A DNA stretch of 57,661 nt, taken from Betaproteobacteria bacterium. Lineage in GTDB: Bacteria; Pseudomonadota; Gammaproteobacteria; Burkholderiales; SG8-39. The notes below the pieces were generated by a model. It made no database searches. It was not told where the DNA came from and saw only the letters and a program-made list of their open reading frames with translations. How positions within the stretch are numbered: position 1 is the first letter of the stretch; each line of letters begins with the position of its first letter. The stretch is from assembly GCA_004298325.1 (NCBI GenBank), contig SCUF01000187.1, positions 1 through 57,661 on the forward strand, given 5' to 3'. Position numbers and translations under genes: made by a program. Shown here piece after piece: positions 5,829-42,568 of this stretch.

Positions 5829-8800
5829 CGGCCGCGCCGCGCGCCGGCGGTCCGAAACGCAGCAGCGCCACGGGCAGGTGGCGCAAGGCGTCCGCGATGC
5901 GCAGCGGCGCATCGCACGGCCGCGTCTCCTCGGGTGCCAGAACGTCGTGCAGTTGCGTTCCCGGCGGCAGGAAGGAAAGATCGAGCACGCAGTCGCGCCA
6001 GGCCGCCGCACCGAGCGGCGCCATGCCCGGCGCGAGGCCGAGCGAGGCGAAGAACCGGCCTGCAATCGCGATGAGGCCTTCGTCCCCAGCGCGCCGCGCG
6101 AATGCGATCACGTGCCGGTTGCGCTCGCCGGCGGCGGCAAGCGGCACGTACGCGGCGCCGGCGAACAGCTCCGGCCGGTCGCGGCGCAGCGCGAGGCAGC
6201 GCCACGCAACCCAGAGCTTGGCGCGGCCGTCGTGCGGGGTCGCGAGCATTTCGCGCAGACCCTCGGACTGCGCCTGCGCCGGCGCGGCGGCGAGCTGCTC
6301 GAGCGCCTGCAGCAGCGCGCTGCGATGGGCGAAGTCCACCGGGCGCCGGTTGTCCGGATCCACCAGCGACAGGTCGATCAGTTCGGTGCCCTGGTAGGTG
6401 TCGGGCACGCCGGGCGAGGCGTGCTTGACGAGCGTCTGCGAGAGGCTGTTGAGCGCGCCGTACCACGCCAGCACCGCCGCCTGCGCGCGAAGGTCTTCGA
6501 GGAACGGGTTGGCGCGGGAACTGTCGAGCAGCGCCTGCACGAACCCGCACAGCGCCTGCTCGTACTCCTCGTTGCGGGTGATCCAGCTGGTGGCGTGCTT
6601 CGCCTCGCGTGCGGCCTTCAGCAGGTATTGCTCGATGCGGGCCCGATAGTCCGCCAGCCCCGCCTCGTCAAGCGGGTCCGCCGGGAACGTGCCGAGCAGC
6701 GTCTGGTAGAACAGGTACTGCTCGCTGGGCGTCGGCGCCGTTTCATCGTGGACGCGGCGCAGCCGGGCGCGATTCAGCGTGCGCCAGCGCGCCAGCAGCA
6801 GGCGCCACGCGGCGGGCGTCTCCGACAGGACGTTGATCCTCTGGCGCACGTCCTCGGCGCGCTTGTTGTCGTGCGTCGAGGTCGCGAGCAGCGTGTGCGG
6901 CCAGTGCGCGGCGCGATCGGCGCTCGCGCCGTGGAACGCGCGCAGCGTGATGCCGAACGCGTCCGGGTCCGAGCCGACCTCGTTCAGCGACGCCAGCCGG
7001 TTGTAGACGTAGAACGCAGTGTCCTCGACGCCCTTCGCCGCCACCGGCGCGGTGAACTGCTGGAATTTCATCGCGAAACGCCGCATCTGCGCGGCCAGCG
7101 CGGCAGGCGCTCCCGCAGCCGCCTGCCCGAGCAGCGCCGCGCGCACGAACTCGAGGATCGAGGTATCGGCTGCGCTGCTGCGCCGCCTGGCGCGCGCCAC
7201 CGCCCAGTGGATGAAGCGCCGGTCCTGCGCCGAGACGCGGCGCCCGATGTAGGTGCGGTACACGGGCATGCACGCCGCGATCTCGGCGAGCGCCTGGCGC
7301 AGCGTGTTGAAGGTGTGGTCGCGCGTGCGCCGGTCGGCGCGCGCGATGCGCAGCAGTTCGGCCGCGAGCACCGTCAGCTCGGCGGCAAGCGCATGGCGCG
7401 CGATCGCGCGCCGTCCACGGTAGGCGGCCTCCTCGAAGTCGGACGCCAGGCCGCTGAACCGGCGCCAGACGCGGTCGATGCGATCGCGCGACTGGCCGTC
7501 GACGAACAGGCCGTTCACCACGGCGGCGAAGCGATAGCCGGTGGTGCCGTGCACGGCCCAGCGCTCGGGCACGCGCTCGTGCGCCGCGGCGATCTTCTCG
7601 GCGACGACGTACAGCGGCCGCGGCCGGCGGCCATCGGGCGCGCGTTCCGGCAGTTCGATCCCGGCGCGCCCGGCGTAGGCGCGCTGCAGGCGCTTGAAGT
7701 ATTGCTCGGGGTCGTACAGGCCGTCGGGATGGTCGATGCGCAGCCCCTGCGCGATGTCCGCGGCGCACAGCTCGAGCGGCAGCGCGTGCGTCGCCTCGAA
7801 CACGACCGCCTCCTCGGTGCGCAGGGCGGCGAGGTCATTGACATCGAAGAACCGGCGGTAGTTGATTTCGTCGGAGGCGACGCGCCAGAAGGCGAGGCGG
7901 TAGGCCTGCGCCTCGAGCAATGCATGCATCGCGTCGCGCGCCGCATCGTGCGCGCCGCCGCCCACCTCCGCCGCGGCCGCCGCGATCGCCGATGCCGCTT
8001 CCGGGTGCGCGCGCGCCAGCTGCGCGAGCCGCGCCTGCAACGCGGCGGCCTCGCGCACCCGCTCCGCCGCGGCGCGTTCGCCGGCGTCGCGCGGCGGCAG
8101 CCGCCCGAATGCGGCAGCGAGGTTCGAGCATTCGTCGCGCGCGGCGGGCGCGGCGCCGGTATCGAGCAATGCTCCGGCGCGCTCGAGCAGCGGCGCATAG
8201 CCGCGCGGGTCGGTTGCGAAGCGATGCTCGTGGTAGCACACCACGAGACGGCCCGATTCGGGCACGAAGGCGAGGACCAGCTCGCCGCGCGCGAGTACTT
8301 CGCCGTAGTGGTCGCCGAGGAACGGCAGCAGCACCTTGTCCTTCAGTTCGGGGTCCACCGGGGACCAATCGATGTCGAAGAAGTTCGCGTACGGCGACGC
8401 CGGGCCGTGCTCGAGGACGTGCATCCACCAGCGGTTGTCGCTGCCGATGCCCATGTGGTTGGGCACGATATCGAGGATCAGCCCCATGCCGTGCGCGCGC
8501 AGCGCCGCCGCGAGGCGCTCGAGCGCCTCGCGGCCGCCCAGCTCCGGGTTGATCTCGCCGTGGTCGACGATGTCGTAACCGTGCCGGCTTCCCGGGCGCG
8601 CGCTCAGCAGCGGCGAGCAGTAGAGGTGGCTCACCCCGAGCCGCGCAAGGTAGGGCACGGTCGCGGCCGCGTCGTCCAGCGTGAACTCGCGGTGCAGCTG
8701 CACGCGATAGGTGGCGCGCGGGATCTGCGCCTGCGCCCGTGCGCGCTGGGGCGAAGCGGGCTGCGGGCGTTGCGCGCGCAGCCGGTGCGCGCAGGCCGCG

Positions 8801-10935
8801 ATGCGAGGATCGTCAGCCATCTGCTCGAGCGTCAGCGGGAGCTTGCGCAGCCAGTTGGGGTGCCCGTCGGTCGTGCCTGGCAGGTTGACCTGCTCCGCGA
8901 CGCCGAGAACGTCCTCGAGCTGAATCACGAGCACGCGCGCGGGCGTGCGCGCCAGGAAGTCCTGCACCGCCAGCGCAAGTTCCGGCGTCCGCCCGGCGTT
9001 CGCGCTCGCGTCGCCCCCCCAGCCGGCGGGCAGCAGGTGCTCGCGTCCGAGGGCGCGCATCAGCCGCGGCCGGTCCTCGGCGCGCGCGGCGCGCTGCTGA
9101 TCGCGCAGGCGCTCGGTCGGATAGAGCCCGAGCGACTCGCGCAGCGCGAGATCGCTCCCTGCCCACCAGCCCGCGAGCGTCGGCAGATCGTGCGTGCTTG
9201 CGGCGACCAGCGCCTGGCGCGGGTACGCCGCGGGCGAGCTGAATTCGCCGTCCGCCGCACGCTCGAAATAGAGCAGCCGGTACGACAGCACGCCCGCCTC
9301 CGCGAGCGCCGCGCGCACCTCGTCCGGCACGGTGCCGAGGTCTTCGCCGATCACCATGCACTGGTTGCGCTGGCTCTCCAGCGCAACGATCGCGAGCAGT
9401 TCGTCGAACGCGTAATGCACGTAGCCGCCTTCGAGTGCGCTCGCACCGGGCGGGATCCAGAACAGCCGCATCAGTCCCATCACGTGGTCGATGCGGATCG
9501 CGCCCGCGTGGCGCATCGCCTCGCGCAGCGCCTGCCTGAACAGCGCATAGTGGCCGGCGCGCAGCCGATCGGGGCGCAGCGGCGGCAGTCCCCAGTTCTG
9601 CCCCTTCAGGTTGAAATGGTCGAGCGGCGCTCCGATGCTGGCGCCGAGCGCGAAGCTCTGGCGCTGCCCCCAGGTGTCGGAACCGGCGCGATCCACCGAC
9701 ACCGCGAGATCGAGGTACAGGCCCACCGCCATGCCGCAGGCGCGGCATTGCGCCGCTGCGCTGGCCAGCTGGATCTCGGCCTGCCACTGCAGGTACTCGA
9801 AATACTCGACGCGCTCGAGGTTCGCGGCGCAGAAGCGCGCCACCTCGTCCGAGGCCGGGTCGCGGAACCCCTCGGGCCAGGCCGGCCAGCCCCAGAGCGC
9901 CGGGTCCTCGCCGTGAAACCGCTCCTGCAGCGCCTCGCACAGCGCGTGCAGGCGCAGAGCCTCGCCCTGCTGCGACTGGAATGCGCGGAACGCGCGCCCG
10001 CGCGCGCTCGCACGCCGCACGTGCCGCTCGCGGAAGTGCGCATACAGCGTTTCGAGCACGCCGAACTTGATCCCGGCGACGCCCGGGTAATCGACTCGTG
10101 GCGCTGCGCGTAGCTCCGCCAGCCGCGCCTGGAACGCGGGCGAGCGCACTTCGCGCTGCGCATCCTCGCATTCGGCATAGTCCGCGATGGCCTCGACGTC
10201 GAGATAGAGCACGTTGAGCCGCAGGCGCGACGACGGACTGTAGGGGCTCGCGTGCGCCGGGTTGTGCGGGAATAGCGCGTGCAGGGGACTGAGTCCGACG
10301 ATGCCGGCGCCGCGCGCCGCCCACTGCCCGGACAGGCGCGCGAGGTCGCCGAAGTCGCCAACGCCCCAGTTGCGCTCGGAGCGCACCGCGTAGAGCTGGA
10401 ACGTCGGGCCCCAGACGCCGGGGCCTTCGGCGAGAACGGGCGGGAGGTAGCAGCGCCCGGGCGCTGCGATGAGCAGGGCATCGCCCAGAAAACCGCGCCG
10501 GCGCGCAGGGTCGTACAGCTCGACGCGGTGGTAGCCGGGCGGCAGCTCGACCGGAATCTCGATCGCGCATTCGGCCTCGCCGCCGGCAGCCATGGCCGCC
10601 TCGCCTTCGTGGCGCGCGCCGTCCTCCAGGGTGAGGTGCCAGGCCAGGTGCTGCCCCGCGGCGGCAGAGGCAACGCGCGCGCGCAGCACCCAGGGCGCGT
10701 GTCCGGGCGCGACCCGCAGCACGGGGGGCAGGACCTGTCGTGCCGTGGCCGCGCGCAGCGCCGCATCGGCGGCCAGCGCGCCCTCCAGCGAGCCGGCGTC
10801 GACGTCCAGTTGCGCCAGCAGCGCAACGAGGCTCGCGGGCGGCACCTCGCGCCAGTGGCCGAAGACGTCGTGATAGCCCGTGGCGAGGCCAAGCCGCGCG
10901 CACAGCCGATCGAGCGCGGCGCGATGCTCGTTCAC
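5821..10935 (-). CDS. Fused 4-alpha-glucanotransferase (MalQ) / malto-oligosyltrehalose synthase (TreY)
   Basis: One uninterrupted reading frame, ~1704 aa, from GTG at 10935 (GTGA overlap with treZ stop). N-terminal MalQ (GPTFQLYAVRSERNWGVGDFGDLARL, AIRIDHVMGLMRLFWIPPGA, MVIGEDLGTVPDEVR) then TreY (IPRATYRVQLHREFTLDDAAATVPYLARLGVSHLYCSPL, LILDIVPNHMGI, PVAAKGVEDTAFYVYNRL). Confidence 0.9.
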   Translation of the reverse strand: MNEHRAALDRLCARLGLATGYHDVFGHWREVPPASLVALLAQLDVDAGSLEGALAADAALRAATARQVLPPVLRVAPGHAPWVLRARVASAAAGQHLAWHLTLEDGARHEGEAAMAAGGEAECAIEIPVELPPGYHRVELYDPARRRGFLGDALLIAAPGRCYLPPVLAEGPGVWGPTFQLYAVRSERNWGVGDFGDLARLSGQWAARGAGIVGLSPLHALFPHNPAHASPYSPSSRLRLNVLYLDVEAIADYAECEDAQREVRSPAFQARLAELRAAPRVDYPGVAGIKFGVLETLYAHFRERHVRRASARGRAFRAFQSQQGEALRLHALCEALQERFHGEDPALWGWPAWPEGFRDPASDEVARFCAANLERVEYFEYLQWQAEIQLASAAAQCRACGMAVGLYLDLAVSVDRAGSDTWGQRQSFALGASIGAPLDHFNLKGQNWGLPPLRPDRLRAGHYALFRQALREAMRHAGAIRIDHVMGLMRLFWIPPGASALEGGYVHYAFDELLAIVALESQRNQCMVIGEDLGTVPDEVRAALAEAGVLSYRLLYFERAADGEFSSPAAYPRQALVAASTHDLPTLAGWWAGSDLALRESLGLYPTERLRDQQRAARAEDRPRLMRALGREHLLPAGWGGDASANAGRTPELALAVQDFLARTPARVLVIQLEDVLGVAEQVNLPGTTDGHPNWLRKLPLTLEQMADDPRIAACAHRLRAQRPQPASPQRARAQAQIPRATYRVQLHREFTLDDAAATVPYLARLGVSHLYCSPLLSARPGSRHGYDIVDHGEINPELGGREALERLAAALRAHGMGLILDIVPNHMGIGSDNRWWMHVLEHGPASPYANFFDIDWSPVDPELKDKVLLPFLGDHYGEVLARGELVLAFVPESGRLVVCYHEHRFATDPRGYAPLLERAGALLDTGAAPAARDECSNLAAAFGRLPPRDAGERAAAERVREAAALQARLAQLARAHPEAASAIAAAAAEVGGGAHDAARDAMHALLEAQAYRLAFWRVASDEINYRRFFDVNDLAALRTEEAVVFEATHALPLELCAADIAQGLRIDHPDGLYDPEQYFKRLQRAYAGRAGIELPERAPDGRRPRPLYVVAEKIAAAHERVPERWAVHGTTGYRFAAVVNGLFVDGQSRDRIDRVWRRFSGLASDFEEAAYRGRRAIARHALAAELTVLAAELLRIARADRRTRDHTFNTLRQALAEIAACMPVYRTYIGRRVSAQDRRFIHWAVARARRRSSAADTSILEFVRAALLGQAAAGAPAALAAQMRRFAMKFQQFTAPVAAKGVEDTAFYVYNRLASLNEVGSDPDAFGITLRAFHGASADRAAHWPHTLLATSTHDNKRAEDVRQRINVLSETPAAWRLLLARWRTLNRARLRRVHDETAPTPSEQYLFYQTLLGTFPADPLDEAGLADYRARIEQYLLKAAREAKHATSWITRNEEYEQALCGFVQALLDSSRANPFLEDLRAQAAVLAWYGALNSLSQTLVKHASPGVPDTYQGTELIDLSLVDPDNRRPVDFAHRSALLQALEQLAAAPAQAQSEGLREMLATPHDGRAKLWVAWRCLALRRDRPELFAGAAYVPLAAAGERNRHVIAFARRAGDEGLIAIAGRFFASLGLAPGMAPLGAAAWRDCVLDLSFLPPGTQLHDVLAPEETRPCDAPLRIADALRHLPVALLRFGPPARGAAGG

Positions 10936-12761
10936 GGCAGCTCGAGGCTCGCGTAAACGCCGCCAGGCTCGAGCTCGAGCGCCGCACCGTGCGCGGCGTC
11001 GCCGCGGCCGTAGATCCGGGTGCCGCGCGGCGGCTGCGGGAGCAGCGCCGCTGCGGGCGAAAAATTGGCGGCGAGGTGCCACCTCGCGCCGCCGCCGAGC
11101 ATCCATTCGACGTGCAGCGCGCCGTCGACGATGACGAACCTGCCGCTGCCCGTGCCGGCGAGGCGCGGCACGAGGTGCCTGCGGCGCAGCTCGAGCAGCG
11201 CGGCGATGTTCTGCAGGTGCTCGCGGTGCGGCGCCTGCGCGCGCTCGTCCCAGCGCAGCCGGGAGGCGGCGAAAGTCGCGGCGTCGCCCGGGTCGGGAAT
11301 GCGGCCGCGCGACGCCGGGTCGCGAAAGGCCGCGAACCGGGCGAATTCCTGCCGCCGGCCGTGCGCCACGGCGGCGGCGAGCTCGGGGGCGAAATCGCAG
11401 AAGAACAGGAACGGCGTCGTGGCGCCGTACTCCTCGCCCATGAACAGCATCGGCACCTGCGGCGCGAGCAGCACGCAGGCCTCGGCCGCGCGCAGCGCGG
11501 CAGGCGCCGCGATCGCCGCGAGGCGCTCGCCGAAGGCGCGATTGCCGACCTGGTCGTGCGTCTGCAGGAAGGCGATGAACGCGGTGGCGGGCAGGTGGCC
11601 GCTCGCCGAGCCGCGCGGCGCGCCGCCGCGAAACGCCGAAGGTTCGCCCTGGTAGGCAAAGCCCTCGGCCAGCGCGCGGCCGAGGCGCGCGAGCGGCGCC
11701 TCGGCGTAGTCCGCGTAATAGCCGTCGGATTCGCCCGTAACCAGCACGTGCAGGGCATGGTGCACGTCGTCGTTCCACTGCGCGCTCGCAAGCCGTGGCC
11801 TCAGCAAGTGCGCGTCGCGCTCGAGGTAGTGCGTCTGGTTGCGGTCGTTCTCGAGCACGAGGTGCACGTGGCGCTCGCGCCCGGGGCCGCAGGCGAGCGC
11901 GCGGCCGATTGCGGCGACGATATCCGGCTCGCTCGAGTCACGGATGGCGTGCACCGCGTCGAGCCGCAGGCCGTCGCAGCGGAACTCCTCGACCCAGTAG
12001 AGCGCATTGTGGATGAAGAACTCGCGCACCGTGCGGCTCGCCTCGCCGTCGAAGTTGATCGCGGCGCCCCAGGGTGTCGCATGCGCCGGGTTGAAGAACT
12101 GCGGCGCGTACAGGTGCAGGTAATTGCCTTCGGGCCCGAAGTGGTTGTACACCACGTCGAGCAGCACCATCAGCCCGTGCGCATGCGCCGCCTGCACCAG
12201 GCGCTTGAAATCCTCGGGCGGGCCGTAGGCGGCCTCCGGCGCGAACGGCAGCACGCCGTCGTAGCCCCAGTTGCGCCGGCCGGGAAACTCCGCCACCGGC
12301 ATCAGTTCGAGCGCGGTGACACCGAGCGCCGCCAGCTCGTCGAGCCGCCCGATCGCCGCGTCGAACGTGCCCTGCGGCGTGAACGCACCGACGTGCAGCT
12401 CGTAGATCACCGCCTCTTCCCACGGCCGGCCCTTCCAGTCTGCGTCCTGCCATTCGAAGGCGAGCGGATCGACCACCATGCTCGGCGCGTGGACGTCTTC
12501 GGGGTTGGCGCGCGAGGCCGGATCGGGGACGCTCATGCCGCCGTCGATGCGGAACGCGTATCGGCTCCCCGCGGGCGCATCGGCGATGCACTCGTGCCAG
12601 CCGTCCGCGAGCGGCGCGAGCGGCAGCTCGGCGCGCGTTGCGGATGAGGCGAGGAGGAGCGCTACGCGCCCGGCCGCAGGGGCCCAGAGGCGGAAGCGCG
12701 TCGCGCCGCCGGGCTGGAGCTCGGCGCCGAACGGCATGGCGTGACGGTAGCGCCCGGACAT
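10932..12761 (-). CDS. treZ: Malto-oligosyltrehalose trehalohydrolase
   Basis: MSGRYRHAMPFGAELQPGGATRFRLWAPAAGRV; EEAVIYELHVGAFTPQGTFDAAI; GLMVLLDVVYNHFGPEGNYL; LENDRNQTHYLERD. Confidence 0.92.
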   Translation of the reverse strand: MSGRYRHAMPFGAELQPGGATRFRLWAPAAGRVALLLASSATRAELPLAPLADGWHECIADAPAGSRYAFRIDGGMSVPDPASRANPEDVHAPSMVVDPLAFEWQDADWKGRPWEEAVIYELHVGAFTPQGTFDAAIGRLDELAALGVTALELMPVAEFPGRRNWGYDGVLPFAPEAAYGPPEDFKRLVQAAHAHGLMVLLDVVYNHFGPEGNYLHLYAPQFFNPAHATPWGAAINFDGEASRTVREFFIHNALYWVEEFRCDGLRLDAVHAIRDSSEPDIVAAIGRALACGPGRERHVHLVLENDRNQTHYLERDAHLLRPRLASAQWNDDVHHALHVLVTGESDGYYADYAEAPLARLGRALAEGFAYQGEPSAFRGGAPRGSASGHLPATAFIAFLQTHDQVGNRAFGERLAAIAAPAALRAAEACVLLAPQVPMLFMGEEYGATTPFLFFCDFAPELAAAVAHGRRQEFARFAAFRDPASRGRIPDPGDAATFAASRLRWDERAQAPHREHLQNIAALLELRRRHLVPRLAGTGSGRFVIVDGALHVEWMLGGGARWHLAANFSPAAALLPQPPRGTRIYGRGDAAHGAALELEPGGVYASLELP

Positions 12762-12765
12762 CGCC

Positions 12766-15722
<2,957 letters not shown>

Positions 15723-22156: not shown

Positions 22157-23382
22157 TCGTACATGTTGGTGTCGCCGCGCACCGGCGCGATCGCGACCAC
22201 CACGACGCCCGACTCGGTGAGGTGGCCGCGCGCGCGATCGCGCTCGGCGTCGTAGCCGACGCGCTCGCCGGGCTGGATCACGTTGTAGCGGTCGAGGATC
22301 GCGCGCCGCACGCGCGCGCCGCGCCGCAGCACGCAGAAGTCCATGATGATCGAGTCCTCGACCACCACGTCTTCCTCCAGCAGCACTTCGCGCCGGATGA
22401 TCGAGTTGCGCACCGTGGCGCCGCGGATCAGCGAACCTGCGCCGAGGTGACTGTTGTCGACCTCGCCGCGCACCACGTTGGCGGCGGGTCCGTGATAGGC
22501 GCTCGAGAGGATCGGCCAGCGCGGGTTGAACAGGTGCAGCTTCGGCTCGGCGCCGAGCGTGTCCACGTTGGCGTCGTAATAGGCGTCGAGCGTGCCGACG
22601 TCGCGCCAGTACGCGGGCTCCTCGTGCGGGCGAACGCCGGGAACGCGGTTGGTGCCGAAATCGTAGGCGAACACGCGGCGGCTGCCGACGAGCCGCGGCA
22701 GCACGTGCCGGCCGAAGTCCTTCTCCCCCAGCGCGCGCGCGGTCTCGAGCTCCGTGGCGAGGACGTCGGCGTTGAACAGGTAGTTGCCCATCGAGGCGTA
22801 CGAGCGTTCGGGGTCGCCGGGCATGGCCGGCGGAGCCGCAGGCTTTTCCAGGAAGCCGCGGATGCGGCCGTCGGCGCCGCAGTCAATGATGCCGAACCCC
22901 GAGGCGCTCGCGCGCGGCACGGGAAGCGCCGCCACCGTGACCTCGGCGTCGCGCTGGCGGTGGAAATCGATCATCTGCCGCACGTCCATGCGGTAGACGT
23001 GATCGGCGCCGAACACCGCCACCAGCGAAGGGCGGTCCACCGCGAGCCGGTGCAGGTTCTGGTACACGGCGTCGGAGGTGCCGGCGAACGATTCCGCGCC
23101 CTCGTGCATCTGCGGCGGCATGACGGTGACGAACTGCCCGGGGATGGTCGAGGCGCCCATCCAGGTGCGGCGCACGTGCTCGATCAGCGACTGCGACTTG
23201 TACTGCACCAGCAGGTAGATCGCGAGGACTCCCGAGTTGAACAGGTTGGAGAGCACGAAATCCACGATCCGGTAGCGGCTGCCGAAGGGCACCGCGGGCT
23301 TGGAGCGCTCGCTGGTGAGGGGGCTGAGCCGCGTGCCCTCGCCGCCGGCGAGCACCATGGCCAGGATGCGTTCGTCTCTCAT
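22153..23382 (-). CDS. glgC: Glucose-1-phosphate adenylyltransferase (canonical copy)
   Basis: MRDERILAMVLAGGEGTRLSPLTSERSKPAVPFGSRYRIVDFVLSNLFNSG; SFAGTSDAVYQNL; FGADHVYRMDVRQMIDFH. Confidence 0.95.
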   Translation of the reverse strand: MRDERILAMVLAGGEGTRLSPLTSERSKPAVPFGSRYRIVDFVLSNLFNSGVLAIYLLVQYKSQSLIEHVRRTWMGASTIPGQFVTVMPPQMHEGAESFAGTSDAVYQNLHRLAVDRPSLVAVFGADHVYRMDVRQMIDFHRQRDAEVTVAALPVPRASASGFGIIDCGADGRIRGFLEKPAAPPAMPGDPERSYASMGNYLFNADVLATELETARALGEKDFGRHVLPRLVGSRRVFAYDFGTNRVPGVRPHEEPAYWRDVGTLDAYYDANVDTLGAEPKLHLFNPRWPILSSAYHGPAANVVRGEVDNSHLGAGSLIRGATVRNSIIRREVLLEEDVVVEDSIIMDFCVLRRGARVRRAILDRYNVIQPGERVGYDAERDRARGHLTESGVVVVAIAPVRGDTNMYE

Positions 23383-24062
23383 GGCTCGTCCTTGCGGCCG
23401 TCGCGCCGCCACCAGCGCTCGAGCAGCTCCGCGGCCCAGCGCTGGCCGCCGAGGCCGAATGCGAGCGCGAGCGCGAACACCACGCCGGCGAGCACGATGA
23501 GGAAGCTCAGGCGCACGATCTCGCCGCCGATGTGCACCTGGTCGAGCGCGATCAGCACCACGAAACCGATGATCGCGTACTGGGCGAGACGGCCGAGCAG
23601 CTCGCCGTCCTGGATCCCGATGCTGCGGCAGTAGGTGGCGAGCGTGCCGCCGACGAAGCGCGCGAAGTACGCGCCGAAGGCGAGGATCAGGAGCGCCACG
23701 ATCACCCGCGGCACGAACAGCACCACCTCGCGCAGCAGGTCGGTGATGTAGGTGAGGCCGAGGCTGTTGAAGCCGATCACGAGCGCGGCGAGCACCACCA
23801 GCCAGTACACCAGGGCGGCGAAGATTGCGGTGGTATCGGCGTCCACGCCGCCCTGCCTGAGAAAGCCGTCCATGCCGGCGCGCTCGGTGAGGACGTGGAA
23901 ATTGACCGCGCGCAGGCCCTTCAGGGTCGCCAGGCGCGCGACCTTGGCGAGCAGCCAGCCGCCGATCAGCACCAGCGCGGCGAGCGCGAGCCGCGGCAGG
24001 AACTGGCCCACCTGCACCAGCAGTGCGCGCAGCGGTTCGAGCAGCAGATCGAAGCTTTCCAT
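23379..24062 (-). CDS. TM-helix repeat protein, MscS-related (CmpX-like), no beta-domain
   Basis: 227 aa; repeated VLIGGWLLAKVARLATLKGLRAV / ILAFGAYFARFVGGTLATYC type helices; ALAFGLGGQRWAAELLERWW end. Confidence 0.75.
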   Translation of the reverse strand: MESFDLLLEPLRALLVQVGQFLPRLALAALVLIGGWLLAKVARLATLKGLRAVNFHVLTERAGMDGFLRQGGVDADTTAIFAALVYWLVVLAALVIGFNSLGLTYITDLLREVVLFVPRVIVALLILAFGAYFARFVGGTLATYCRSIGIQDGELLGRLAQYAIIGFVVLIALDQVHIGGEIVRLSFLIVLAGVVFALALAFGLGGQRWAAELLERWWRRDGRKDEP

Positions 24063-31475: not shown

Positions 31476-32951
31476 TTGAACTCGCAAGCGCTCCGCGTCC
31501 TCTTCGTCACGCCGGAATGCGCGCCGTGGGTGAAGACCGGCGGGCTCGGCGACGTGAGCGCCGCGCTGCCCGCGGCGTTGCAGGCGCTCGGCCACGATGT
31601 GCGGGTGCTCATGCCCGCGTATCGCGCCGTGCTCGGCGCGGTGCGCGCGCGCCATGTCGTGGCGCGCCTGATGCCGAGCGGCCAGTTTCCGCAGGCAGAG
31701 CTGATCGCTGCACGCTTGCCCAGCGGCGTGCCGATCCGGCTGCTGCACTGTCCCGCGCTCTATGACCGGGAGGGCGGACCCTATCAGGACGCCTCGGGCG
31801 CGGACTGGGCGGACAACGCGCTGCGCTTCGGCCTGCTGTCGTACGCGGCGGTCGCGCTGGCGCGCCGCGGCGGTCGCGCCTGGCGTCCGCAACTGATCCA
31901 CTGCAACGACTGGCAGGCGGGTCTGGTGCCCGCGTACCTGCATTACTTCCCGGGTCCGCGCCCCGCGACGCTGCAGTGCGTGCACAACCTCGCCTTCCAG
32001 GGACTGTTTCCGCCGCAGGCGGTCGCGACGCTCGGGCTCCCCGCGGAAAGCCTGAACGCCGAAGGCGTCGAGTTTTTCGGTCGCCTGTCGTTCCTCAAAG
32101 CCGGACTGCGATATGCCGATGCCATCGTCACCGTCAGTCCGAGCTACGCGCTCGAAATCCAGCGCGAGCCCCTGGGGTTCGGCCTGCAGGGCCTGCTCGC
32201 GGCGCGCCGCGAGCGGCTGCACGGCATCCTCAACGGCATCGACGAGCGCGAGTGGGATCCGGCGCGCGACGCACACCTCGCCAGCCGCTACGACGCCGCG
32301 CACCTGGAGGCGAAGCGCGCCAACAAGCGCGCGCTGCAGGAGCGGCTCGGGCTGCCGCCGGCGGATGACGCGATGCTGTTCGCGATGGTGGCGCGCATCA
32401 CGGAGCAAAAGGGCGCGGACCTCGCGGCGCGGCTTGCCCCGCGCATCGCCGCGCTCGGGGCGCAGCTCGCGGTGCTGGGAACGGGCGAGCGCGCCATGGA
32501 GCAGGAACTGCTCGCGGCGGCGCGCGCGGCCCCGCGCAGCGTGGCCGTGCGCATCGGCTTCGACGAGCCGCTGTCGCACCTCATGATGGCGGGCGCCGAC
32601 GCCTTCCTCATGCCCTCGCGCTTCGAGCCCTGCGGCCTCAACCAGATGTACGGGCAGCGCTACGCTACGCCGCCGGTCGCGCACGCCACCGGCGGCCTGA
32701 GCGACACCGTCGTGGACGCGAGTCCCGCGGCGCTCGCCGACGGCAGCGCGACCGGTTTCCTGTTCCACGCGCCGGATGCCGAGGCATTCTGGACCGCGAT
32801 CGGGCGCGCGCATGCGGCGTGGCGCGATGCGCCCACCTGGCGCGCGCTGCAACTGAACGGCATGGCGAAGGACTTCGGCTGGGGTCCGAGCGCCCGCGCC
32901 TACGCGCGCCTGTACGAGACGCTCGCCGCCGCGCTCAGAGCCAGCGCATGA
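31476..32951 (+). CDS. glgA: Glycogen synthase (ADP-glucose type)
   Basis: TTG start; RVLFVTPECAPWVKTGGLGDVSAALPAAL; CNDWQAGLVPAYL; VHNLAFQGLFP; DAFLMPSRFEPCGLNQMYGQRYATPPVAHATGGLSDTV. Confidence 0.95.
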   Translation: MNSQALRVLFVTPECAPWVKTGGLGDVSAALPAALQALGHDVRVLMPAYRAVLGAVRARHVVARLMPSGQFPQAELIAARLPSGVPIRLLHCPALYDREGGPYQDASGADWADNALRFGLLSYAAVALARRGGRAWRPQLIHCNDWQAGLVPAYLHYFPGPRPATLQCVHNLAFQGLFPPQAVATLGLPAESLNAEGVEFFGRLSFLKAGLRYADAIVTVSPSYALEIQREPLGFGLQGLLAARRERLHGILNGIDEREWDPARDAHLASRYDAAHLEAKRANKRALQERLGLPPADDAMLFAMVARITEQKGADLAARLAPRIAALGAQLAVLGTGERAMEQELLAAARAAPRSVAVRIGFDEPLSHLMMAGADAFLMPSRFEPCGLNQMYGQRYATPPVAHATGGLSDTVVDASPAALADGSATGFLFHAPDAEAFWTAIGRAHAAWRDAPTWRALQLNGMAKDFGWGPSARAYARLYETLAAALRASA

Positions 32952-35502
32952 GCCCCAGCTCGAACGGGTGCGTCAGACGGGCGTGCGCCGGGTAGGCGCG
33001 GATGCGGTACTCGAGCTGGCCGCAGATCTCCGGGCGCAGTTCGCAGCCGAAGCGGTATTCGCCGGCAGCGGACTCGGCGCCCTCGCAGCCGAGCCGGTGG
33101 CTCTGCGGTGGTGCGTCCGGCGCGCCTCGCATGACCACCTCGATCACGAGGTCCGAGGGCGCGATCCCGTTCAGCCGCGCCGCGATCTCCACGCGCATCG
33201 CGGCGCCGAACGACAGGCGCTTGGGCGGCGCGTCGAGGCGGCGCAGCGACACGCCGTGCCACGCCGCGCGCACGCGCGCCTTCCACTGCGCGATTTCGCG
33301 CGCCACGGCGTATCCGTTGTCGGCATAGACGCGTCCCTGGCGCGCCGCCGGCGCATAGAAGCGCTCGACGTACTCGCGCAGCATCCGGTTGCTGTTGAAC
33401 TTCGGCAGCAGCGAGGCGATAGAGCGCTTGGCGAGCGCGACCCACCCCGGCGAGTAGCCGTGCCGGCCGCGCGCGTCGTAATACAGCGGGATGACGTGGT
33501 CCTGCAGCAGTTCGTACAGGGTGCGAGCCTCCTCGCGGTCGCGCCGGTACTGCTCGAGCGCCGCGGAGGCCGGCTTGATCGCCCAGCCGTTGTCGCCGGT
33601 GCTGCCCTCGGCCCACCAGCCGTCGAGCACCGACAGGTTGATGGTGCCGTTGATGCCCGCCTTCATGCCCGAGGTGCCCGAGGCTTCCAGGGGGTAGATC
33701 GGGTTGTTGAGCCAGACGTCCACGCCTGCGACCAGACGCCGCCCGAGGTGCAGGTCGTAGCCTTCGACCAGCAGGATGCGGCCTTCGAATTCGGGCATCC
33801 GCGCGCATTGCGCGATCTGGCGCATCAGGTCCTGCGCCGCGGTGTCGTCGGGGTGCGCCTTGCCCGCGAACAGGAACAGCACGGGGCGGTGCGGGTCGCC
33901 GAGAATGCGCTTGAGACGGTCCGGGTCTTCGAACAGCAGCATTGCCCGCTTGTAGGCCGCAAAGCGCCGCCCGAATCCGATCGTCAGCACGTCCGGATGC
34001 TCGGGATCGGCGAGCCGCACCAGCCGGTCGTAGTGCGACTCGCTTTCCTGGTTGCGCGCGAACTGCAGCCGCAGGCGGTGGCGCAGCAGATACAGCAGGT
34101 TGACCTTGAGCTGGCGCCGCACGTTGACGAACAGCTCGTCGGGCAGTTCGGCGATGCGCAGCCAGAAGGCGGGCTCGGTGACGCGCTCGCTCCACTGCGG
34201 CCCGTAGGTCTGCTCGAGGGCGCGCGCCAGCGCGGGCGCGAGGAACGTCGGCACGTGCACCGCGTTGGTGATGTAGCCGACGGGATTTTCCTCGGGCGGC
34301 ACCTCCGGCCAATGCGCGGCGAGGATGCGCGCAGAGACGCCGCCGTGGATTCGCGAGACGCCGTTCTGGAAGCGCGAACCGCGCACGGCGAGCGCGGTCA
34401 TGTTGAAGCGCGGGCCGTGCGGATCGCGGCCGAGGGCGGCGAACTGTTCGGGCGTGATGCCGGCGCCGGCGCAGAAGTCCGCGAAATAGCGCTGCACCAT
34501 TTCGTCCTCGAACGCGTCGTGCCCCGCAGGCACCGGCGTGTGCGTCGTGAACACGGTGTTCGCGGCGCAGGCCTCGAGCGCGGCGTCGAACTCGAGTCCG
34601 TGCTGCAGCAGCACGCGCAGGCGCTCGACCAGAAGGAACGCGGCATGCCCTTCGTTGACGTGCCAGGCGGCCGGCTGCAGCCCGAGCGCCGCGAGCGTGC
34701 GCACGCCGCCGATGCCGAGCACCATCTCCTGCTCGATGCGCGTGCCGCGGTCGCCGCCGTAGAGCCGGCGCGTGATGCGCCGGTCGCGCTCCTCGTTTTC
34801 CGGCACGTCGGTGTCGAGCAGCAGGAGCGCTATGCGCCCGGCGCGCGCGCGCCAGACCCGCAGCGCGAGGCGCCGCCCGGGGAGCTCGAGGTGCACGCGC
34901 AGCTCGCCGCCGGCGCCCTCGACCGGCTCGATCGGCAGGTCGTCGAAGTCGCTCTCGCGGTACTCCGCGCGCTGGCCGCCATCGCTGTCGATCGCCTGCT
35001 GGAAGTAGCCCTGGCGGTAGAGCAGGCCCACGGCGACGAACGGCAGGTGCAGGTCGCTCGCGGTCTTGCAGTGATCCGCGGCGAGGATCCCGAGGCCGCC
35101 GGAGTACAGCGGCAGGCTTTCGTGGAAGCCGTACTCGGCGCAGAAATAGGCCACGAGGTCGGACGTGCCGAGCGCCGCATCCTGCGGCGGCGGCGCGGCG
35201 CGGTAGGCGTCGTACGCCCGCAGCACATGCTGCAGCGCATGCTGGTAGTCCGGATCGGTCACGGCCGCGGCGAGGGCGTCGGCGTCAACGCGCCTGAGCA
35301 GCGCGCGCGGGCTGCGGCCGACCGAGTCCCAGAGTCCCGGGTTGAGCCGCGCGAACAGCGCGCGCGCCGGCCCGTGCCAGCTGTACCAGAGGTCGCTGGC
35401 GAGTTCCTCGAGGCGCGCGAGCGCCGGCGGAATCTTCGGGCTGACCTGCAGCGGGAACGCGGTTCCCGGCGGCTCGGCGCCGGGAACCTCGAGCGGACTC
35501 AT
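32935..35502 (-). CDS. glgP: Alpha-glucan phosphorylase
   Basis: VAYFCAEYGFHESLPLYSGGLGILAADHCKTASDL; HVNEGHAAFLLVERL; SGTSGMKAGINGTINLSVLDGWWAEG; 17 bp tail overlap with glgA. Confidence 0.95.
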   Translation of the reverse strand: MSPLEVPGAEPPGTAFPLQVSPKIPPALARLEELASDLWYSWHGPARALFARLNPGLWDSVGRSPRALLRRVDADALAAAVTDPDYQHALQHVLRAYDAYRAAPPPQDAALGTSDLVAYFCAEYGFHESLPLYSGGLGILAADHCKTASDLHLPFVAVGLLYRQGYFQQAIDSDGGQRAEYRESDFDDLPIEPVEGAGGELRVHLELPGRRLALRVWRARAGRIALLLLDTDVPENEERDRRITRRLYGGDRGTRIEQEMVLGIGGVRTLAALGLQPAAWHVNEGHAAFLLVERLRVLLQHGLEFDAALEACAANTVFTTHTPVPAGHDAFEDEMVQRYFADFCAGAGITPEQFAALGRDPHGPRFNMTALAVRGSRFQNGVSRIHGGVSARILAAHWPEVPPEENPVGYITNAVHVPTFLAPALARALEQTYGPQWSERVTEPAFWLRIAELPDELFVNVRRQLKVNLLYLLRHRLRLQFARNQESESHYDRLVRLADPEHPDVLTIGFGRRFAAYKRAMLLFEDPDRLKRILGDPHRPVLFLFAGKAHPDDTAAQDLMRQIAQCARMPEFEGRILLVEGYDLHLGRRLVAGVDVWLNNPIYPLEASGTSGMKAGINGTINLSVLDGWWAEGSTGDNGWAIKPASAALEQYRRDREEARTLYELLQDHVIPLYYDARGRHGYSPGWVALAKRSIASLLPKFNSNRMLREYVERFYAPAARQGRVYADNGYAVAREIAQWKARVRAAWHGVSLRRLDAPPKRLSFGAAMRVEIAARLNGIAPSDLVIEVVMRGAPDAPPQSHRLGCEGAESAAGEYRFGCELRPEICGQLEYRIRAYPAHARLTHPFELGLMRWL

Positions 35503-35534: not shown

Positions 35535-37793
35535 TCAGGCGCGCCGCAGATCGACGATCTGCGCGGGGCGCCGCGCGCCCGCGGCGAGGCGGCGGCGCTG
35601 GCGCACGCGCGCGGCATCCAGCAGCATGCGCCCGGCCCAGCGGTAGACGTTGAATTCCTGCACCAGCCTGCGCATGCTGCGCATGCGGCTGCGCTGCTCG
35701 TCGGGCGGCATGGTGAGCGCCTGCGACAGCGCGGCGGCGCATTCCTCGGTGTCGTAGGGATTGACGATCAGCGCCTCGGGCAGCTCGCGCGCGGCGCCGG
35801 TGAACTGCGACAGGATCAGCGCGCCGCGCTCGTCGTCGCGCGCGGCGACGTATTCCTTGGCCACCAGGTTCATGCCGTCGTGCAGGCTCGAGACGAAGCA
35901 CAGATCGGCGGCGCGGTAATAGGCGTACACCTGCGCCGCGTCGTGATGCTCGATCTTGAGCACGATCGGCTGGCAGGTCGGCGTACCGAAGCGCGCGTTG
36001 ATGCGCTGCGCGGCGGCGCGCACGCGCGCATCCAGGCTCTGGTACTCCTCGATGCTCGAGCGCGACGGCGCAGCGATCTGCACGAAGGCGACGCGGCCGA
36101 TCCAGTGCGGCTCCAGCTCGAGCAGGCGCTCAATGGCGGCGAAACGCTCCAGGATGCCCTTGGTGTAATCGAGCCGGTCGACGCCGATGCCGATGCGCGC
36201 ATCGGCCGCGAGCCCGAGCTCGAGGCGGACGCGCTCGCGGCATTCGGCGACCGGCTTCTGCTGCGCCAGCGGCGCCGGCGGCCACTCGATCGAGATCGGA
36301 TAGCGGTGCACCTCGGTCGGCTCGCCGCCGTAGGAGATGGTGAAGGTCTCGCGGTCGACGCGCGCTTCGAGGAAGCGGTCCACCGTGTCGAAGAAGTTGT
36401 TGCAGTGGAACTGGGTGTGGAATCCCAGGATCGAGGAGCCGAGCAGTCCCTCCAGGATCTCCCGGCGCCACGGGCAGACGCCGAAGGCCTCGGGATTCGG
36501 CCAGGGAATGTGCCAGAAGGTGATGATGGTGGCGCGCGGCAGGCGTTCGCGGATCATGCGCGGCAGCAGGGCGAGGTGGTAATCCTGCACCAGCACGATC
36601 GGGTCGGAAGTGCGCGATTCGCTTTCCACCGCGCGCGCGAAACGCCGGTTGACCTCGCGGTAATGCTCCCAGTCGGGAGCGCGGAACACCGGCCGGGTGT
36701 GAGCCATGTGGCACAGCGGCCACAGCCCCTCGTTGGCGAAGCCGTAGTAGTAGCCGGCCTCTTCCTCCTTGCTCAGCCAGACGCGGCGGATGCGGTAGGC
36801 GGGCTTTTCCGGCGGCACCATGATGTGATCGTTGTCGTCGACCGTGTCGCGGTCGGCGTTGCCCGAGCCGTGCGCGATCCAGGTGCCGGAGCAGGCGCGC
36901 ATCACCGGCTCGAGCGCGGTCACCAGGCCGCTCGCCGGGCGCCGCACCTCGACCTGGCCGTCGCGCCGCACGTGGATGTAGGGCTCGCGGTTGGAGACGA
37001 TCAGGATCTCGTCGCCCTTCAGGTCCTCGCGCAGGATGCCGCGCAGCGCCTCCGGCGTCCAGCTGATCTGCGCCTCGTCGCGCATGCGCCGCTCCGCATC
37101 CAGATCGTGCACCAGCGCCTCGAGGTCGCGCGCGATCGGGCGCAGCTCGCGCGCCTTTGGCTGCGGCGTCAGCGAGAGCGACTGGCCGCGGATCAGCGCC
37201 TTGATGCCCGCCATCCAGCCGCGGAAGGAGATTTCGGCGATCACCACGGTGATCAGCGCGACCACCGCGCCGAGCGCCGCGAACAGGTACACGATGTACT
37301 CCTTGGTGTCGGCGCTGCGCCGCTCGATGAAGCTCATGTCGTGCACCACCAGCACCTCGCCGAGGCGCTGGTCTTCCAGCGTCACCGGTCTCGCGACCAC
37401 GTGCAGCGGGCCGCCCGGCAGTTTGAGCACGTGGCCGCTTTCTTCGAGTTCCGCGTTCGCCTTGCGGCAGGCGATTTCGGCCGGCAGCGTCGGCGTCTTG
37501 TACAGGAGCCTGCCCGTGGTGTCGCAGAAGCCGAGCGCGTAGAGGCGTTCGTCCTGCAGCAGGCGGGCGAAAAACGCCTGCACGCGCCGCACGCGTACGA
37601 TGTCGCGCTCCTTGGCGGTGAGCAGCTCGACCAGCGGTTCCTCCGCGGCCGCGGTCACCAGCTTGGCCCGCATGTCGAGGTCGCGCACGAACCACTTCAG
37701 CGTCAGGTCGTCGACCAGCGGCGCGACGCCGTAGGCGATGGCGCCGAGCGCGATCGCAAGCGGTATGATGAAGCGAAGCGAAAGGCGCATCAT
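35535..37793 (-). CDS. otsA: Trehalose-6-phosphate synthase (GT20) with N-terminal TM/periplasmic sensor-like/HAMP-like module
   Basis: ~752 aa. TM1 [22 protein letters not shown]; ~140 aa predicted periplasmic segment; TM2 [24 protein letters not shown]20 motifs [63 protein letters not shown]. Confidence 0.92.
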
Positions 37794-37845
37794 GGCTGAC
37801 TCCGCGCCGCGGCAGGAAAGCCCCGATTCTACTAGCTCCTGATTG

Positions 37846-38793
37846 ATGGACCCGCTTGCGATCGTCGCCAACAGCCTCGGCGGCCTGGCCGCGCTCTATT
37901 TCGGCGCGCGCTGGCTGGTGGGGGCGGCGAGCGATGTCGCGCGGCGGCTCGGCGTCTCGCCGCTGCTGATCGGACTCACGGTGGTTGCGGTCGGTACCAG
38001 CCTGCCGGAACTTTTCGTCGGCGTCGCGGCCTCGATCGGCGGCCACGCGGGCGTGTCGCTCGGCAACGTGATCGGCGCCAACGCGCTCAACATCGGCCTC
38101 ATTCTCGGCGTCGCGGCGCTCATCCGGCCGATCGTCGTCAGCCTGCGCGTGCTGCAATGGGATCTCCCGGTCATGTTCGCGGCGACCGCGCTGCTGGCGT
38201 GGTTCTCGGCGGACGGCGAAGTGACCCGCGGCGAGGCCGTGATACTGCTCGCCGCGATGCTGGCCTATCTCGGCCTGAACATCGCGGCGGGACGCCGGGA
38301 GCGCAAGGCCTCGGCGCTTGCGGGTGCGCTCGAGGTGCCGCACGCCGCGAGCCTCGCCGGCGATCTTGCGCGCGGGGCCGTCGGCGCGGCGGCCCTCGCC
38401 ATCGGCGCGCGCCTGCTGATCGACGGCGCGCTGGGCCTCGCGGCGGCGCTCGGGCTCGCCGAAGGCCTCGTCGGCATGACGCTGGTCGCCGTAGGCACGA
38501 CGCTGCCCGAACTGGTCACGACGCTGGTGGCGGCCGCCCGGCGGCAGGGGGATCTCGCGTTCGGCAACATCGTCGGCTCGAACATCAACAATGCGCTCAC
38601 CGTGGTCGGCGCAGCCGCCGCCGTGGCGCCGCTCGCCGCGGGCGACGTGGCCCGCGCGCCGATGTACGCGCTGCTGGCCCTCACGCTGCTCGCCGCGCCG
38701 GTGATGTGGCGCGGATTCGTCATCAACCGCTGGGAGGGCGGCTTGCTGGTGTGCGGCTATGCCGCATTTCTCTGGGTCGGTCTCGGTGGCTAG
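37846..38793 (+). CDS. Calcium/sodium antiporter (CaCA family)
   Basis: GLTVVAVGTSLPELFVGVAASIGGHAGVSLGNVIGANALNIGLILG and GMTLVAVGTTLPELVTTLVAAARRQGDLAFGNIVGSNINNALTVVG alpha-repeats. Confidence 0.95.
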   Translation: MDPLAIVANSLGGLAALYFGARWLVGAASDVARRLGVSPLLIGLTVVAVGTSLPELFVGVAASIGGHAGVSLGNVIGANALNIGLILGVAALIRPIVVSLRVLQWDLPVMFAATALLAWFSADGEVTRGEAVILLAAMLAYLGLNIAAGRRERKASALAGALEVPHAASLAGDLARGAVGAAALAIGARLLIDGALGLAAALGLAEGLVGMTLVAVGTTLPELVTTLVAAARRQGDLAFGNIVGSNINNALTVVGAAAAVAPLAAGDVARAPMYALLALTLLAAPVMWRGFVINRWEGGLLVCGYAAFLWVGLGG

Positions 38794-39555: not shown

Positions 39556-40323
39556 TCAGTGACGCGCGCGAATCGGCCGCACCGGTCCGCGGTAACGCTC
39601 GCGGCCCGGCTTGCCGTCGAGCGCCGGCAACTCGAGCGGCGCTTCCTTCAGCCTGCGGTAGGGCACCTGCTCGAGCAGGTGCGCGATGAGCTCGAGCCGG
39701 CCGCGGCGCTGATCGTTGAACTCCACCACGTGCCAGGGCGCATGCCTGCGGTGCGTCGCCTCGAACATGGCATCGCGCGCGCGGCCGTACTCGGCGTAGC
39801 GCTGGCGCGCCTCGAGATCGATCGGCGAGATTTTCCAGCGCTTGAGGGGATTGCCGGCGCGCTCGGCGAAGCGTTCCTCCTGGACGCGCTGGTCCACGGC
39901 CAGCCAGTACTTGCAGAGCAGGATGCCGTCTTGCGTCAACAGCTTCTCGAACAGCGGTGCCTGCCTCAGGAAGCGGCGGTATTCGGCTGCGCTGCAATAG
40001 CCCATGACCCGCTCGACGCCCGCGCGGTTGTACCAGCTGCGATCGAACAGCACCATTTCGCCCGCCGCGGGCAGGTGCGCGACGTAGCGCTGGAAATACC
40101 ACTGCGTGCGCTCGAGCTCGGTCGGTTTCGCCAGCGCCACGATGCGCACCTGGCGCGGGTTGAGCGTCGCCGCAATCGCGCTGATGCTGCCGCCCTTGCC
40201 GGCGGTGTCGCGGCCCTCGAACAGCACCAGCATCCGGCGGCCCGTGTGGCGCAGCCAGTGCGCGAGGTTGTTGAGCTCGAGCTGCAGCGGCTCGAGTTCC
40301 CTTTCATAGTCCTTTTTCTTCAT
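39556..40323 (-). CDS. ppk2: Polyphosphate kinase 2 family protein
   Basis: RMLVLFEGRDTAGKGGSISAIAATLNPRQVRIVALAKPTELERTQWYFQRYVAHLPAAGEMVLFDRSWYNRAGVERVMGYC. Confidence 0.95.
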   Translation of the reverse strand: MKKKDYERELEPLQLELNNLAHWLRHTGRRMLVLFEGRDTAGKGGSISAIAATLNPRQVRIVALAKPTELERTQWYFQRYVAHLPAAGEMVLFDRSWYNRAGVERVMGYCSAAEYRRFLRQAPLFEKLLTQDGILLCKYWLAVDQRVQEERFAERAGNPLKRWKISPIDLEARQRYAEYGRARDAMFEATHRRHAPWHVVEFNDQRRGRLELIAHLLEQVPYRRLKEAPLELPALDGKPGRERYRGPVRPIRARH

Positions 40324-40335
40324 GCAGCTTCGCCG

Positions 40336-41103
40336 TCAGTCGGCTTTCGCTGCGCCCCGCGTCAGGGCCTGATAAAGCTCCACCGGCAGCGGAAAGACGA
40401 TGGTGTTGCTCTTGTCGCCGGCGATGGCGTTGAGCGTCTGCAGGTAGCGCAGCTGCATCGCCTCGGGCTGGCGGGCGAGCATCTGCGCCGCGGCGAGCAG
40501 CTTTTCGGAGGCCTGCAGCTCGCCCTCGGCGTGGATCACCTTGGCGCGCCGCGCGCGCTCGGCTTCGGCCTGCTGCGCGATGGCGCGCACCATCGATTCG
40601 TTGAGGTCGACGTGCTTGATCTCGACGTTCGACACCTTGATGCCCCACGGATCGGTCTGCACGTCGAGCACCTTCTGGATGTCGAGGTTGAGCTTTTCGC
40701 GCTCGGCGAGCATCTCGTCGAGCTCGTGCTTGCCGAGCACCGCGCGCAGCGTGGTCTGCGCGAGCTGGCTGGTGGCATCGAGGTAATTCTCCACCTGGAT
40801 GATCGCGCGCTGCGGATCGACCACCCGGAAGTAGATCACCGCGTTGACCTTCACCGAGACGTTGTCGCGCGAGATCACGTCCTGCGTCGGCACGTCGAGC
40901 ACCACCGTGCGCAGGCCGACGCGCACCATCTGCTGCACGCCCGGCACCACCAGCACCAGGCCCGGGCCCTTGACCTTCCAGAAGCGTCCGAGCAGGAACA
41001 CCACGCCGCGCTCGTATTCGCGCAGGATGCGGAACGAAGCCACCACCAGCGCAATGAGGAGCAGCAGCACGCCGCCGATGCCGAAGTCGTAACCGAAGTC
41101 CAT
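40336..41103 (-). CDS. Slipin family (SPFH) membrane protein
   Basis: [109 protein letters not shown]. Confidence 0.95.
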
Positions 41104-41104
41104 G

Positions 41105-42448
41105 TCAGCCTCCTGGTCTGCCGGGCGGCGCCGCGGCCACCACGAGCATCAAGCCGTCCCGTGCGCTCACCCGCACCCGTTCCCCCGGCGCGAAACGCCG
41201 GTCGCCATGCGCGCGCCAGAGTTCACCGTGCACCCGCACCATGAGGTCTCCGTCGGCGGCTTCGACGACCTCGCCAAGCGCTCCGATCATCGCCTCCGAG
41301 CCGGTGCTCACCGGGCGCCGCCGCGCGCGCAGCGCATAGGCACCGGTGCCGGCGAGCAGCAGCGCGCTGGCGATGGCCAGCGGCACGAGGAGCCCGATCG
41401 AGATCTGCATACCGGGGATGTCGGCGTCGATCAGCATCAGCGCACCGGCGACAAAGGCCGCGATGCCGCCGATGCCCAGCGCGCCGAAGCTCGGCAGGAA
41501 CGCCTCCGCCGCCATGAGCGCGACACCCACGAGCAGCAGCAGGGCGCCGACCGCGTTGAGCGGCAGCATGGCGAGCGCGTACAGCGCCAGCAGCAGGCAG
41601 ACGGCGCCGATCACCCCCGCGACGCCGAAACCGGGCGTGTAGAACTCGAACAGCAGCCCGTAGACGCCGAGCATCAGCAGGATGAGGGCGATGTTGGGGT
41701 CGGCCACCGCCGCCAGCAGCCGCTCCTTCCAGTTGCGCTCGATGACGAGCGTCGTGGCCCCGGCGAGGGCGAGCGTGGCTTCGCCTGCGGCCAGCTTGAC
41801 GCGCCGTCCGTCCAGCTGGCGCAGCAGATCCGACAGGTCTGCCGCGACCAGGTCGACGACGTTGTGCTTCGCGGCCTCGTCCGCGGAGAGACTTTCGGCC
41901 TCGCGCACGGCTTTCTCGGCCCATTCGGCGTTGCGGCCGCGCAGTTGCGCCAGGCTCCTCAGGTAGGCGGCGGCATCGTGCACGGCCTTTCTTTCCATGG
42001 CGCCGCCCGGGAGCGCGCGGCCCTTGCCGTCCTCCGGCTTTTCCTCCGCCCCGGGCTTCGCGGATTCGCCGCCGATGCCGATCGCGACCGGCGTGGCGGC
42101 GCCGAGATTGGTGCCGGGTGCCATCGCGGCCACGTGGCTGGCATAGAGAATGTAGGTGCCGGCGCTGGCGGCGCGGGCGCCCGAAGGCGCGACGTAGGTG
42201 GCGACCGGCACGGGCGAGGCGAGAATGCCCCGGATCATCTCTCGCATGGCGGTGTCCAGCCCGCCCGGCGTGTCGAGCCTGAGCACCAGCAGTGGCGACC
42301 CGGTGCGCTGTGCGACCTCGAGTGCGCGCAGGAAATACGCGGCGCTGGCGGGGCTGATGGCGCCGCGGATCTCCGCCACCACCACGGCCCTGGCGAAGGT
42401 CGTGCAAGGCAGAAGCAGCAGCGCGGCTAGGAACAGGGCGCGTTTCAT
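41105..42448 (-). CDS. NfeD family protein (ClpP-class membrane serine protease)
   Basis: [101 protein letters not shown]. Confidence 0.93.
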
Positions 42449-42568
42449 CGTCCCCTTTCCAGGCAATCGATGCGGACACCATAGCACAGGCACCGCCTGT
42501 TTCCCGACAAGTCGATCACGCTACAATCCGGCTGCCCTGCGCAAGTCAGTGTCCTTGGATGGGAACGC

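Follow-up and report, generated by a model that had tools for sequence, protein, structure and literature searches.

Bacteria can begin making compatible solutes seconds after an osmotic or desiccation shock, and this rapid response is commonly explained by transcription or by the action of ions on soluble enzymes. The canonical trehalose-6-phosphate synthase, OtsA, is itself a soluble protein of ~450 to 490 amino acids. Cache domains, in turn, make up the largest extracellular sensor family of bacteria. The main survey of them names kinases, chemoreceptors, c-di-GMP enzymes, cyclases, transcription factors, and channels among their outputs and states that they occur with signalling outputs only (PMC4822843). 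A Cache/HAMP-like module and a GT20 glycosyltransferase are each known. As far as we found, their combination is undescribed: our search of the open-licence literature returned no paper describing a membrane-bound OtsA or a Cache or HAMP domain fused to GT20.

The window considered here is the whole 57,661-nucleotide stretch of betaproteobacterial DNA that was analyzed, and it carries a single gene in which the two are joined. We are highly confident that this architecture, a membrane-receptor module followed by a GT20 enzyme, is real. Its parts, together with two related genes, are as follows.

35535..37793, minus strand: whole gene, 752 amino acids, a membrane-anchored GT20 protein of the trehalose-6-phosphate synthase type (reading frame, Pfam, full-length relatives)
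37713..37775, minus strand: first transmembrane segment (TM1), residues ~7-27, with the conserved N-terminus MRLSLRF (hydropathy, conserved start, helix 2-59 in the model)
37335..37712, minus strand: periplasmic single-Cache/PDC-like domain, residues 28-153 (AlphaFold2, Foldseek, sub-threshold CHASE4 in 8/53 members)
37524..37526, minus strand: codon of Cys90, invariant in 53/53 proteins and three distant relatives (alignment)
37467..37469, minus strand: codon of Cys109, invariant in the same 53/53 and three distant relatives (alignment)
37224..37298, minus strand: second transmembrane segment (TM2), residues ~166-190 (hydropathy, helix 154-201 in the model)
37068..37223, minus strand: divergent HAMP-like linker, residues 191-242 (model, hhalign against 15 HAMP segments)
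37008..37067, minus strand: linker helix, residues 243-262, with invariant W245, L250, and L254 (alignment; also in single-TM rhizobial relatives)
35616..37007, minus strand: GT20 catalytic domain, residues 263-726 (PF00982, conserved OtsA residues, structural match)
32935..35502, minus strand: alpha-glucan phosphorylase (glgP type, DUF3417), the next gene downstream (domain match)
14898..15722, minus strand: otsB, trehalose-6-phosphate phosphatase, the sole copy found in the genome, 20 kb from otsA

An earlier note on this DNA had placed a reading frame of ~752 residues at 35535-37793, naming no strand. Those coordinates are right, and translation assigns the gene to the minus strand, read from 37793 to 35535, with a product of 752 residues; a plus-strand frame over the same interval was rejected as the antisense shadow of this gene. 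Hydropathy peaks at residues ~7-27 and ~166-190 agree with the two membrane segments that had been predicted (~7-27 and ~167-190). The periplasmic segment and the full GT20 motifs reported for the C-terminal part also lie where they had been put, with a complete PF00982 match on residues 263-726 (E 2e-123; 413 bits against a gathering cut-off of 32.5). The start codon is M1 or M2 (MRLSLRF...) and is conserved among relatives.

Because DNA of 70% G+C often contains long open frames, one could argue for a start-site or assembly artefact, in which the true enzyme begins near residue 245-260 and the frame upstream is chance or a separate gene. We found nothing else in favor of this explanation. 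A scan of GTDB genomes yielded 260 candidate relatives, and among the best 80, which were kept, 79 were long enough for full reading. All 79 share the layout and a MRLSLRF-like start, with the match running from residue 1 or 2; the internal start near the GT20 domain that the earlier note had asked about occurs in none of them. These relatives align over their whole length at ~59-91% identity and come from Pseudomonadota (37), Nitrospirota (25), Bdellovibrionota (6), Gemmatimonadota (5), Acidobacteriota (4), Myxococcota (1), and Thermodesulfobacteriota (1), although many are metagenome bins, for which single phylum assignments may be wrong. Nitrospira moscoviensis, whose genome is complete, and several isolates of Noviherbaspirillum are also in the set. 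Furthermore, comparison with five close relatives gave dN/dS of 0.16-0.48 for the N-terminal module, with 0.30-0.77 for the Cache part alone versus 0.12-0.23 for the GT20 domain. Values below 1 indicate that the module is translated and constrained, if more loosely than the enzyme. Conservation of the start and the whole module, along with these ratios, refutes the artefact, to which we assign next to no probability. Mean pairwise identity is 39% in the Cache part versus 72% in the catalytic part, and such faster divergence would be usual for a sensor whose ligand varies.

The segment between the two membrane helices is predicted to have the fold of a sensor domain. AlphaFold2, run on residues 1-268 with 53 relatives, returned a model with a mean pLDDT of 85.7, rising to ~90-97 in the periplasmic part, where residues 28-153 make up one Cache/PDC-like domain. 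In this model, a helix spanning residues 2-59 is continuous with TM1 and is followed by a second helix (64-82), five strands, and a helix (154-201) that contains TM2. Foldseek matched it in the PDB to the sensor domains of WalK/YycG, DctB, KinD, Tlp3, and CitA, with a probability of 1.00 for WalK, DctB, and CitA, and all five are extracytoplasmic Cache/PDC domains. Cache domains are told apart from PAS domains by a long helix extending TM1 and by a domain that fills the region between two transmembrane segments (Upadhyay et al. 2016, PMC4822843). The model has the corresponding single-Cache features: a long N-terminal helix from TM1, a PAS-like five-stranded sheet, and an extracytoplasmic region lying entirely between the two membrane segments. 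AlphaFold2 and Foldseek thus agree on the single Cache fold that the earlier note had proposed, and Pfam support is sub-threshold. No Cache-clan model scored above its Pfam cut-off in the protein or in 53 relatives, and CHASE4, a member of that clan, appeared below cut-off in 8 of the 53 (best E, 0.0015). By sequence alone the Cache assignment is weak; the evidence for it is the fold together with the weak CHASE4 match.

A Pfam match to Adeno_E3B was dismissed as similarity between transmembrane helices, the N-terminal alignment, searched as a sequence profile against the PDB, found a chance match only, and a CHASE4 search of 56 genomes found one locus above cut-off, too few for a profile comparison. 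The module has no conserved cysteines other than Cys90 and Cys109, and these two likely form a disulfide that links the end of strand 1 to the loop following strand 2. Even when three distant relatives are included, W34, D38, R42, R83, C90, C109, G145, H151, D152, and R159 are invariant.

Beyond TM2, the model has a helix to residue 201, a connector (202-214), and a second helix (215-240) bearing the pattern ELxPIxxDLxxLVxDL. This is the geometry of a HAMP domain, namely, TM2, an amphipathic helix, a connector of ~13 residues, and a second helix with an E-[LI] motif. The linker aligns in register over 39 columns with 15 HAMP segments from the same genome (hhalign, P 6.6e-4), while seven other segments of the same protein, used as controls, gave P of 0.017 or worse. 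Searches with the HAMP model PF00672 listed no match at E up to 10 in the protein itself or up to 1 in 53 relatives. The HAMP-like linker of the earlier note therefore stands as to its place, geometry, and profile similarity, but it is divergent and below Pfam detection; we call residues 191-242 HAMP-like and withhold the name HAMP. P219 is invariant in this part, as are W245, L250, and L254 in the last linker helix.

The enzyme has the active site expected of a trehalose-6-phosphate synthase. We tested 12 residues of Escherichia coli OtsA: R9, W40, Y76, W85, R300, G22, D130, H154, R262, D361, and E369, which constitute the published glucose-6-phosphate/UDP-glucose binding list (PMC1769515), and K267. 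We took Trp40 of that paper to be W39 in Met-1 numbering, since the residue equivalent to W42 is H308 here. Each of the 53 proteins compared keeps all 12 of these substrate-binding or catalytic residues, which supports the enzyme identity given in the earlier note. Conservation of Arg300 (R301), a glucose-6-phosphate contact, is informative since 8 of the 22 other GT20 sequences in the comparison have N or A at this position. Structurally, the GT20 model is nearest to Mycolicibacterium thermoresistibile OtsA with ADP and glucose-6-phosphate (5jio/5k41; TM 0.88, 38% identity). The protein very probably has trehalose-6-phosphate synthase activity.

An alternative is a receptor whose GT20 domain makes another product from a related NDP-sugar and phosphorylated acceptor, such as a compatible solute resembling glucosylglycerol-phosphate. 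The family is a clade apart from characterized OtsA, and its scores fall under the curated cut-offs of all OtsA models (430 vs 565 bits for TIGR02400 and 263 vs 759 bits for PRK10117, both NCBIfam equivalogs), so it is best described as an OtsA-like GT20 of a separate clade and not as a curated OtsA equivalog. Yet the residues that bind glucose-6-phosphate are all conserved, R301 included, otsB sits in the same operon in most relatives with a trehalase-like GH15 gene beside it, and the gene is the only GT20 in a host genome that carries otsB, as its type is the only one in 12 other genomes. We consider a different product improbable.

The neighboring genes describe a trehalose unit. Raw clustering of neighbors missed otsB in many loci, where long frames overlap, and direct tblastn was used instead. 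By this measure, otsB lies directly downstream on the same strand, often overlapping, in 71 of 79 loci, and a GH15 gene adjoins in 55 of 79; the usual unit is therefore a sensor-OtsA, OtsB, and a putative trehalase. The one GH15 protein that was scanned (L081:1602-3449) has the trehalase-like N-terminal domain PF19291 and scored best with archaeal trehalase models, below their cut-offs. The source window is an exception, with the alpha-glucan phosphorylase gene after otsA and with otsB 20 kb away next to a glgX-type gene. GT20 and otsB each occur once in the host genome, and both genes lie inside the window.

Positions 12766-35502 of the window form a dense alpha-glucan/trehalose island encoding a glgX-type protein, OtsB, a glgC-like nucleotidyl transferase, glucokinase, a TreS-maltokinase fusion, GlgE, GlgB, GlgA, and GlgP, and MalQ and another amylase-family stretch lie just outside it (5824-11778). 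TreS, Mak, and GlgE provide a route from trehalose to alpha-glucan, which trehalose made in this host would feed. Ion and osmotic genes occur around the island, encoding an MscS-type channel (1361-2257), a Na/H exchanger (2267-3475), a second MS-channel-like protein (23379-24062), and a Na/Ca exchanger (37843-38793) whose gene is divergent from otsA. A PPK2 polyphosphate kinase followed by a Band_7/slipin and NfeD pair occupies 39556-42493.

Across genomes, the architecture is widespread, and the sensor module was seen with one enzyme. Among 399 Pseudomonadota genomes, 124 had a GT20 gene but only 4, our own included, had the module; among 300 genomes of the host's order, 21 had it. Every confident readable match in these two samples was fused to the same GT20, and none to a kinase, cyclase, or chemoreceptor. 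Two weak matches (E 8e-4), a histidine-kinase-type protein (L087) and L088, were left out of these counts. A search of viral contigs for the module was empty. In 12 further genomes each GT20 gene was of the membrane type, which makes 13 with our own, Nitrospira moscoviensis among them. Two Noviherbaspirillum genomes (L056 and L072) have two membrane-type GT20 genes each and would allow a comparison between two sensors that share one output. In a GT20 tree, the membrane forms make up one clade, with soluble haloarchaeal enzymes as its sister group. The clade splits into three branches: the main group of sensor forms, a second such group, and the rhizobial enzymes, which have one TM and lack the Cache domain. 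The rhizobial line may have lost the Cache domain, or the domain may have been gained twice; the data fit both.

The rhizobial branch bears on the main rival to a signalling role. The N-terminus could be a plain anchor or scaffold that keeps trehalose-6-phosphate synthesis on the inner membrane, where it would serve OtsB, alpha-glucan enzymes, or a transporter, with a Cache domain that is structural or dimerizing and does not signal. Because this related clade (L117 and the Aminobacter forms L137 and L138) keeps one TM, the linker helix, and the enzyme without Cache, plain anchoring is a possible explanation, albeit one that we hold to be less likely than a signalling role. A simple anchor would not need a folded periplasmic domain of 125 residues with invariant cysteines and charged residues, and that domain and the two-helix HAMP-like linker are kept across seven phyla. 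Moreover, the rhizobial forms have different neighbors (GT4, amylo-1,6-glucosidase), with no otsB in the stretch read, and their role may differ.

We favor direct extracytoplasmic gating of trehalose synthesis as the best reading, with a probability slightly above even. The protein would be an inner-membrane receptor-enzyme whose cytoplasmic GT20 domain transfers glucose from NDP-glucose (UDP or ADP) to glucose-6-phosphate, giving trehalose-6-phosphate, which OtsB would convert to trehalose. The periplasmic Cache domain, fixed between TM1 and TM2 and probably braced by a Cys90-Cys109 disulfide, would bind a small ligand or report the state of the periplasm or membrane. Its signal would pass through TM2 and the divergent two-helix HAMP-like linker to GT20, with the protein probably assembled as a dimer or a larger oligomer, and would thereby raise or lower trehalose-6-phosphate synthesis. 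The osmotic signal that the earlier note proposed is plausible and finds no support in the data. We put at about even odds the reading that the protein represents a kind of one-component transmembrane receptor not described before. Its Cache/HAMP module would act directly on a glycosyltransferase of central metabolism, and an extracytoplasmic signal would set trehalose-6-phosphate synthesis with no kinase, second messenger, or transcription in between, in a lineage covering several phyla and including nitrite-oxidising Nitrospira.

Here the sensor domain that faces outward is part of the enzyme itself, and no other GT20 type was found in the 13 genomes that were checked. Annotation pipelines call the relatives simply trehalose-6-phosphate synthase, so the sensor goes unnoticed in databases. 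In some soil, groundwater, and nitrite-oxidising bacteria, outside conditions may control a sugar-making step directly. If gating is true, metabolic enzymes join the outputs of the Cache family, and a single protein offers a testable system for osmosensing or ligand sensing.

How the protein departs from known systems can be set out from either end. Like OtsA of E. coli and M. thermoresistibile (5jio/5k41), it has a GT20 domain (32-38% identical in structure alignments, TM up to 0.88) with every listed substrate-binding residue and an OtsB partner, but it adds 262 N-terminal residues, two membrane segments, and a Cache domain, and it falls in a separate clade under the NCBIfam equivalog cut-offs. 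The nearest soluble sister is haloarchaeal trehalose-6-phosphate synthase (39-45% identity), and the two examples examined (484 and 560 amino acids) lack a TM segment. Rhizobial single-TM enzymes, such as L117 and those on Aminobacter plasmids pANY103b and pAA02, share the GT20 clade, the membrane anchor, and the linker helix W-[ST]-x-[DE]-T-[LM]-R, but have neither Cache nor HAMP. The Aminobacter forms (L137:1-9737, L138:1-9500) adjoin a GT4 glycosyltransferase, an amylo-alpha-1,6-glucosidase, and a HAD-type hydrolase, with no otsB beside them in the stretch read, and may belong to a different pathway. From the other end, the module resembles the Cache receptors WalK/YycG, DctB, and CitA in its TM1, long helix, PAS-like five-stranded sheet, TM2, and HAMP-like segment. 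Unlike in those receptors, its output is a metabolic glycosyltransferase.
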